NCBI RefSeq assembly: GCF_016587435.1
Contig: NZ_BNJJ01000010.1
Coordinates: 124,001 to 188,000, forward strand
Source of the DNA: Dictyobacter formicarum
GTDB taxonomy: Bacteria > Chloroflexota > Ktedonobacteria > Ktedonobacterales > Ktedonobacteraceae
DNA: 64,000 nucleotides
Direction of reading: 5' to 3'
The notes beneath the pieces are model-generated. The model was not told the DNA's origin. It did not search any database and saw only the letters and a list, made by a program, of their open reading frames with translations. Positions within the stretch are counted from its first letter, which is position 1, and each line of letters begins with the position of its first letter. This document shows positions 23,917 to 24,963 of this stretch, piece after piece. The position numbers were made by a program, and so were the translations under genes.

Positions 23917-24963
23917 ATGCCGGTAGAAAAAGTTGGAGCAACATCCAGTCTGGTAGACGTACTTGATCGCATTCTTGATAAAGGGATCGTCATCGATGCC
24001 TGGGTCAGGGTCTCGTTAATAGGTATTGAAATTCTGACTATTGAAGCCAGGGTCGTCGCTGCATCTGTCGAAACCTATCTCAAATATGCTGAAGCCGTCG
24101 GTTTAGTCGCCTCTGCGCCAGAATCAGGCACAGCGGCCCGCGTGCATGCGCAGATGATGGCTGACGAAGCCAGGGAGGCGCAGCACAAGCTAGAGGACTT
24201 TATTGGATTGGTCAGCCATGAACTGAAAACTCCACTGGCAGGGACCCAGGGCAGCGTACAACTGGCGAAGCGTAAATTGTATCGCTATGAGTCCGATCCC
24301 TCCCAACCTGAGCAGCAGGAGCGCAATAACCAGATCATCAGGTCTGTCTTGCAAGCGCTGGCCAACGCGCATGATCAGACCACCGTCCAGACCCGGCTGG
24401 TAAACGATTTGCTGGACGCCTCGCGTATCCATGGACAAAAGTTGCGCCTGCTACAGAAGCCATGTGAGCTAAACCAGATTGTACGCCAGGCGGTCGAAAA
24501 CCTGCGCACTATCGCTCCCAATCGGGTTATTGAGCTGGATGAAGACGAAGATAAGCGGCTGATTGTGTGTGTCGATGCGGACCGCATCGGGCAGGTAATT
24601 GCCAACTATCTCTCTAATGCCTTGAAGTATTCCCCGGCCGATCGGCCGGTGTTTGTGCGTCTGGAACAGGATGGTGAAAAGGTCAAACTACTGGTGCGCG
24701 ACGAGGGCCCCGGCCTGCCCGCAGCAGAACAAAAGCACATCTGGACCCGCTTCTACCGCGTCTCCGGCATCCATAGCCAGCAAAATTCAGGCGTACCTCA
24801 CGTCAGCCTGGGTGTCGGCCTGCACATCTGCAAAGGAATCATTGAGCAGCATCACGGCGAGGTCGGCGTTGACAGCAGTCTTGGCGAGGGCTCGACCTTC
24901 TGGTTCACCCTGCCGCTGCACGCATTCTTGCAGCCAACCGTCGAAACAGCGTTTCCTCTTTGA
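23917..24963 (+). CDS. GvpA gas-vesicle domain fused to a histidine kinase
   Basis: 348 residues. The ATG follows AGAGGAGGAAAAG, with GGAGG 5 bases before it; a GTG 18 bases upstream is less likely. Residues 1-63 are a near-canonical GvpA (SSLVDVLDRILDKGIVIDAW at 10-29, VSLIGIEILTIEARVVAASV at 32-51, ETYLKYAEAVGL at 52-63), the main shell protein of gas vesicles, with the alpha-beta-beta-alpha order complete. A linker (64-90, helical and acidic) leads into a HisKA domain with LVSHELKTPLAG and phospho-acceptor His101. The HATPase domain has the N-box NYLSNALKYSP near 230-240, G1 DEGPGLP at 262-268 and G2 GVGLHICKGI near 299. It has no transmembrane helix or PAS/GAF domain, so the GvpA part takes the sensor position. 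No response regulator and no other gvp gene is in the window. A strong terminator follows. Confidence 0.9.
   Translation: MPVEKVGATSSLVDVLDRILDKGIVIDAWVRVSLIGIEILTIEARVVAASVETYLKYAEAVGLVASAPESGTAARVHAQMMADEAREAQHKLEDFIGLVSHELKTPLAGTQGSVQLAKRKLYRYESDPSQPEQQERNNQIIRSVLQALANAHDQTTVQTRLVNDLLDASRIHGQKLRLLQKPCELNQIVRQAVENLRTIAPNRVIELDEDEDKRLIVCVDADRIGQVIANYLSNALKYSPADRPVFVRLEQDGEKVKLLVRDEGPGLPAAEQKHIWTRFYRVSGIHSQQNSGVPHVSLGVGLHICKGIIEQHHGEVGVDSSLGEGSTFWFTLPLHAFLQPTVETAFPL

Follow-up and report, generated by a model that had tools for sequence, protein, structure and literature searches.

How does a gas-vesicle shell protein come to stand at the front of a histidine kinase, and what could it do there? 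The question is raised by one gene of Dictyobacter formicarum, which lies in a stretch of 64,000 nucleotides of contig NZ_BNJJ01000010.1 (assembly GCF_016587435.1), here called the window. In this gene, one frame joins a nearly complete GvpA, the main shell protein, to a HisKA-HATPase kinase with intact motifs. We compared both halves and the DNA around them with family models, solved structures and the loci of related bacteria. Published papers are cited by PubMed Central (PMC) number, and statements taken from them rest on extracts of their text.

One frame from GvpA to kinase

A preliminary description, made from the letters alone, had claimed a single uninterrupted gene, and this holds: the forward-strand translation of 23917-24963 runs for 348 residues and then meets a stop. 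AGGAGG precedes the ATG at 23917, as it does at gvpA of D. aurantiacus, which makes this ATG a likelier start than the GTG at 23899, where the alternative open reading frame begins. The gene and its two parts are as follows.

23917-24963, plus strand: GvpA-histidine kinase fusion gene, 348 residues, defined by the open frame and by Pfam and NCBIfam matches
23917-24132, plus strand: gvpA-derived part, residues 1-72, with clear DNA homology to D. aurantiacus gvpA as far as 24115; residues 68-72 are less certain
24133-24960, plus strand: kinase-derived part (signal helix, HisKA, HATPase_c), defined by homology to a D. aurantiacus kinase

Each half exceeds the cut-offs of its families. The Pfam model PF00741 matches residues 11-49 (56.2 bits, cut-off 25) and the NCBIfam GvpA model PRK09371 matches residues 1-67 (118.2 bits, cut-off 100), while tblastn gives 86% identity to D. 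aurantiacus GvpA over residues 1-73. The first 79 residues have two PDB matches, and both are solved GvpA shells: 8gbs (residues 1-67) and that of B. megaterium, 7r1c (residues 2-72). The GvpA identification therefore stands, with an extent slightly longer, to about residue 67-72, than the residues 1-63 first proposed. The kinase that was said to follow is likewise there, with HisKA on residues 92-172 (40.7 bits, cut-off 26.9) and HATPase_c on residues 220-335 (88.7 bits, cut-off 26.4). This half matches 53 distinct PDB sequences, the top one labelled a histidine kinase. The motifs SHELKTP, NYLSNALKYS, DEGPGL and LGVGLHICKG begin at residues 100, 230, 262 and 298; we take them to be the H, N, G1 and G2 boxes, all of which are present.

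At 348 residues, the product is much longer than the small free GvpA subunit of about 70-90 residues, and no gvp cluster surrounds its gene in the window. When the window was searched by tblastn (E 0.01) with seven proteins of the D. aurantiacus gas-vesicle locus and a GvpJ-like frame, the fusion was the sole match. Four receiver-containing proteins, used in the same way, matched the fusion alone, outside their receiver domains, and Pfam (E 1e-8) found no receiver domain in the 30 scanned of the 62 listed window reading frames (the fusion, scanned separately, is among the 62). Over the part covered, these results agree with the earlier statement that the window lacks further gvp genes and response regulators. 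Scans of the window against Rfam (gathering threshold) and for tRNAs gave no match, and promoter and terminator scans gave scores not clearly beyond those of shuffled sequence.

Two source loci and their joints

The closest relatives of the kinase half are Dictyobacter proteins, one from Dictyobacter sp. S3.2.2.5 (P0002; 81% across 82% of the query length; its precomputed annotation includes DUF4118) and one from a D. aurantiacus locus (L001). The L001 kinase gene (L001:9683-10969, 428 residues) encodes DUF4118 at residues 54-163 (29.7 bits, cut-off 28.4), followed by HisKA and HATPase_c, and by eye its DUF4118 N-terminus looks membrane-spanning. From 24136 onward, 275 codons of the fusion align with this kinase without gaps at 81% identity. 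The window is syntenic with L001 on both sides of the gene, and partly syntenic with the corresponding D. kobayashii locus (L002). In the fusion (P0001), by contrast, Pfam finds no DUF4118 even at E 1; gvpA stands in place of that N-terminus and of the upstream region of the kinase. This agrees with the preliminary description, which had put GvpA in the place of the sensor. The other half points to a different source, as window positions 23770-24115 match the D. aurantiacus gvp locus (L013) at 82%, and the fusion thus shares the leader and ribosome-binding site of gvpA genes. The features that define the two sources are these.

22502-23068, minus strand: left syntenic flank gene, 189 residues, no Pfam match at 1e-8, same neighbour in L001
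23317-23373, plus strand: further gvpA-upstream homology to L013, score 44, reached by 0 of 500 shuffles
23621-23743, no strand assigned: insertion of 123 bp resembling a miniature inverted-repeat transposable element (MITE), within the gvpA upstream region, with perfect 22-bp terminal inverted repeats
23770-23916, plus strand: gvpA leader and Shine-Dalgarno sequence, homologous to L013:11197-11344, score 123 (best of 500 shuffles, 29)
25120-25542, plus strand: right syntenic flank gene, HIT-domain protein, by synteny with L001 and Pfam
25656-27494, plus strand: right syntenic flank gene, asparagine synthase, by synteny with L001 and Pfam

Both joints can be placed closely. On the left, homology to the kinase locus ends at about 23288, and the gvpA-upstream homology from 23317 puts the breakpoint between about 23290 and 23317. 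The D. vulcani locus L018 does not align clearly with this upstream piece (score 28, reached by 4 of 500 shuffles). On the right, gvpA DNA homology is clear to 24115 and kinase homology starts at 24133, so that the joint lies between 24116 and 24133. A gvpA-locus tract of about 0.8 kb (from about 23290/23317 to 24116/24133) thus replaces, in frame, the upstream region and sensor of the kinase. Lost at the joint are the last few GvpA codons, the gvpA stop and the whole DUF4118 part of the kinase; what is retained of the kinase, the 275 residues gained relative to GvpA, begins about 27 residues ahead of the H box. From the alignments of both joints we infer recombination, in which a gvpA-bearing tract took the place of the kinase upstream region and sensor. 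A piece of a shell protein has thus likely replaced the membrane sensor of a kinase. The MITE-like element is flanked by 7-bp direct repeats (AACATTC at 23614-23620 and 23744-23750), and even when up to 3 mismatches are allowed, its terminal repeat has no other copy in the window.

Could the joints be false? The fusion of two adjacent genes by a sequencing error, raised in the preliminary description, is rejected because in D. aurantiacus about 1.6 Mb of a single contig separate gvpA from the kinase gene and because kinase-locus DNA is present on both flanks. An assembly artefact or chimera, with the gvp fragment elsewhere in the real chromosome, is very improbable. The fusion is a single sequence in protein searches, which would fit an artefact. 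However, with kinase-locus DNA on both sides a single chimeric join does not explain the tract; two precise false joins and the loss of the original 5' part would be needed, and the joint is in frame.

Proposed accounts: docked kinase or passenger of a captured promoter

What would such a protein do? The explanation that we favor, with a rough probability of 0.4, is that the product acts as a soluble kinase and docks on polymers of GvpA, made when a gvpA segment replaced the kinase upstream region and membrane sensor. The gvpA-bearing segment would have been swapped in by recombination, and because the gvpA upstream region is kept, the fusion would be expressed together with the gas-vesicle genes. 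Its GvpA part keeps the native free N-terminus, and the kinase rides on the C-terminal tail, which is flexible or outward in solved shells. The fusion could then join or cap GvpA ribs, or assembly intermediates, sparsely beside normal GvpA, and the docked kinase would inform an unlinked response regulator of how much GvpA is assembled or in what state. Parallel helices in coiled coils such as those of the signal helix lie about 10 Å apart. This is near the spacing of about 12 Å between neighboring GvpA subunits in a rib, so docking could set how the kinases pair.

Published work on shells bears on several of these steps. The 12 Å spacing comes from the solved B. megaterium shell, in which GvpA2 is flexible from residue 67 on (PMC9994262). 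The GvpA C-terminus faces outward and tolerates a six-residue tag, and shells also form when tagged and untagged subunits are mixed (PMC10961726, PMC10039352). In a different system, vesicles were lost with an N-terminal extension and kept with a short C-terminal one (PMC10039352).

The rival that we consider nearly as likely is an accidental capture of a promoter and 5' end, with GvpA a functionless passenger and a dispensable kinase mis-expressed, constitutive or being lost. Sequence constraint speaks to both accounts. Against the D. aurantiacus kinase, 52 of the 275 codons differ in amino acid and 84 differ silently (nonsynonymous divergence dN 0.115, synonymous divergence dS 0.956, ratio w 0.120; a dS near 1 is saturated), and the kinase part looks to be under constraint. 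Over 66 codons, the GvpA part has 6 nonsynonymous and 23 synonymous-only differences from D. aurantiacus (w 0.057), and free GvpA of D. aurantiacus and D. vulcani has 1 amino-acid and 28 silent codon differences (w 0.006). The GvpA part thus appears intact, yet freer than in shell subunits. It keeps the residues that are invariant across 26 GvpA sequences (its own among them). It also keeps R31, E38 and E43, through which each subunit is linked to the next in the solved shell of B. megaterium (PMC9994262). Against the passenger account stand the frame, which is open through both parts, the 275 kinase codons, which are free of indels, and the joint, which retains nearly the whole of GvpA together with the signal helix. 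Five of the six GvpA changes are conservative, which also sits poorly with a passenger, though not significantly so.

Several observations weigh against docking, and some of them favor the passenger. None of 44 other GvpA sequences has the G7, T9 or A48 of the fusion (47 GvpA-like sequences were compared; 44 were in register and used, and 3 were dropped). Positions 7 and 9 align with residues of B. megaterium GvpA2 that contact the next rib, where residues 3, 6, 7 and 9 of the N-terminus bind (PMC9994262). The six substitutions are not clearly non-random in a test for conservative change (P 0.09-0.14), and because the fusion is undated, the differences do not prove that selection has acted on its GvpA part since it arose. 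Some of the six differences may predate it; they need not all be later. In the D. kobayashii record, frame breaks divide the orthologous kinase gene (L002:10065-10880), so the kinase may be dispensable, and D. vulcani has no close ortholog, its best matches being at 48-49%. The MITE-like insertion upstream also fits a gene that arose by accident.

The distribution of the fusion points the same way. It is absent from all 47 genomes of the class, which were scanned with PF00741 and searched with the fusion. The PF00741 scan gave 29 matches in 10 of the 47 genomes, and no open frame that holds one exceeds 245 residues; there are 3 matches each in D. aurantiacus and D. vulcani, and none in D. kobayashii. 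The fusion search (at most 44 candidates scored per genome, matches listed at E 1e-66) gave 17 matches in 13 genomes, every one beginning at residue 51 or later. No second case was found in the best 120 of 2851 protein matches, in all 96 matches to the GvpA part or in the 47 genomes.

The structural evidence is also unfavorable. AlphaFold models residues 1-78 as one confident helix (residues 12-61) without a hairpin, with a mean predicted local distance difference test score (pLDDT) of 79.0 and block means of 85-98 over residues 11-60. In the full-length model (mean pLDDT 76.5), the GvpA blocks are helical and of low confidence (40-61), again without a hairpin. The alpha-beta-beta-alpha fold of GvpA is thus seen in neither model; both are of monomers and lack a free-GvpA control. 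These two models argue against docking unless the hairpin forms only between neighbors. In the extracts cited, vesicles do not form when a bulky partner is fused to the main shell protein (PMC11445434, PMC10961726), every GvpA2 fusion tested failed to yield intact vesicles (PMC11445434), and in human embryonic kidney (HEK) cells six-residue-tagged GvpA alone formed no shell (PMC10961726). Given these results, sparse docking beside normal GvpA is the most that seems plausible.

If the hybrid does dock on gas vesicles, it would show one way in which a cell could sense the condition of a gas-filled organelle. It would also be a natural case of a large cargo carried at the C-terminus of GvpA, something not achieved by the laboratory fusions described in the cited extracts. 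Even if it is accidental, the gene would be a clear case of a histidine-kinase sensor replaced through recombination with an unrelated structural gene. Judged by titles and abstract openings, the open-licence PMC papers returned by our searches describe no natural GvpA-kinase fusion and no histidine kinase with this N-terminal partner. Our literature search for Dictyobacter and gas vesicles found nothing.

GvpA beside other signalling proteins

It is tempting to ask whether other bacteria have brought GvpA and signalling together. The preliminary description had called for a look at relatives for the same architecture, and the outcome is divided: the class genomes have none, and the database proteins that come closest are different proteins of weak provenance. 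A search of proteins of 191-609 residues with the GvpA part gave 96 matches, five of them with a precomputed signalling domain (the fusion itself, P0132, P0143, P0145 and P0204), and a search of longer proteins gave 7, P0219 and P0204 included. Three of these resemble the fusion in carrying an N-terminal GvpA on a signalling protein and differ from it in their partners. P0219 is a GvpA-PAS-PAS-HisKA-HATPase protein of 745 residues (one member sequence, no contig listed), P0204 is a partial GvpA-GAF-PAS-HisKA protein of 600 residues (two member sequences, no contig listed), and P0145 joins GvpA to an MCP signalling domain in 358 residues (one member sequence, on a contig of 1317 bases). GvpA fusions to signalling proteins may thus have arisen more than once, each of the other cases being thinly supported.

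On reading the sequences, we set other candidates aside. In P0132 and P0143, a receiver protein appears to run on into a GvpA that has a start of its own; in P0126, P0131, P0134 and P0137, gvpA is read on into an apparently shifted frame; and P0136, GvpL/F followed by GvpA, was not counted as a true fusion.

Relatives of P0219 were sought in 968 genomes of three other phylum-level groups, named here after Luteitalea (L029), a deltaproteobacterial metagenome-assembled genome (L026) and Labilithrix (L067). At E 1e-120 they were found in 6 of 396, 61 of 195 and 3 of 377 genomes, respectively, and none of the 70 begins before residue 74, so that all lack GvpA. We examined 34 of the 70 matched loci, each over about 3.6-5 kb, and in 15 of them a gvpA-like gene lies on the same strand directly ahead of the kinase gene, at distances from an overlap of 106 bases to a gap of 537. 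By group, the pair occurs in 5 of 6 (Luteitalea), 7 of 25 (deltaproteobacterial) and 3 of 3 loci (Labilithrix).

L133, L135-L145 and L164-L166, same strand: gvpA-kinase gene pairs, by locus inspection

L026, L029, L039 and L045 are the same places as L140, L135, L141 and L145 and were counted once, and L165 and L166 are 97% identical. The gvpA-kinase gene pair is widespread in these three groups, so a link between gvpA and a kinase is not unique to the fusion gene. The remaining 19 loci, which count against the docking account, have no gvpA-like gene near the kinase within the 3.6-5 kb; a gvpA farther away would have escaped notice. In the paired loci (L026, L039, L133, L165 and others), gvpA is likely co-transcribed with the histidine kinase gene beside it; unlike in the fusion, the genes are separate, and the kinase is a different one with PAS domains. 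The Serratia gas-vesicle cluster offers another comparison, with the regulators GvrA, GvrB and GvrC tied to gas-vesicle expression (PMC4982088), as is proposed for the fusion; they are free regulators, not GvpA fusions.

How far do these proteins change the picture? One possibility is that the GvpA part works by itself as a self-association module, which would cluster kinases without a gas vesicle, like other polymerising signalling domains. The invariant GvpA residues that the fusion keeps would suit this, as would P0219 and P0145, in which GvpA is joined to kinase or chemotaxis domains. We consider it unlikely: the isolated GvpA part is not modelled in the GvpA fold, and a kinase on every subunit at the 12 Å spacing (PMC9994262) would make a crowded polymer. 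A broader reading, to which we give still less weight, is that GvpA is a reusable signalling input domain, itself the sensor here, and that its recruitment to PAS kinases and to a chemotaxis receptor happened in separate events. A pair of fusion proteins would then sit as neighboring rib subunits, and rib assembly, strain or collapse would alter the pairing of the signal helices and so switch the kinase. Docking of a soluble kinase beside normal GvpA remains the account that we prefer.

The same searches brought up further members of the GvpA family. In P0216-P0218, P0220, P0221, P0146 and P0149, the GvpA helix-2 motif (ASVETYLKYAEAVG) is matched 3-10 times and the motif RILDKGIV at up to 7 separate places; PF00741 matches P0216 and P0149, and several of the seven have lipoprotein-like starts by eye. 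P0153, P0163, P0169, P0170 and P0173 combine GvpA with SnoaL/ester-cyclase-type domains (PF07366, PF12680) in one protein of 208-211 residues; two of the five have 12 member sequences.

The gas-vesicle loci of Dictyobacter have features of their own. In D. aurantiacus, gvpA of L013 is accompanied by an Hsp20-family gene, a CDC48-type AAA ATPase and GvpL/F. The double AAA ATPase adjoins gvpA both there (L013:12360-14513) and, by sequence likeness, in D. vulcani (L018:11036-13153). Elsewhere in the D. aurantiacus gas-vesicle cluster there is a GvpL/F-DnaJ fusion (L130:706-1707) and a GvpA-family domain fused to GvpK (L130:1749-2429). Around this cluster, four minus-strand genes (L013:9805-10719, L013:18128-18457, L013:18588-19448 and L130:2766-3086) encode proteins without a Pfam match that share, by eye, a C-terminal ending of the form WG.IG.SGH..LVW.
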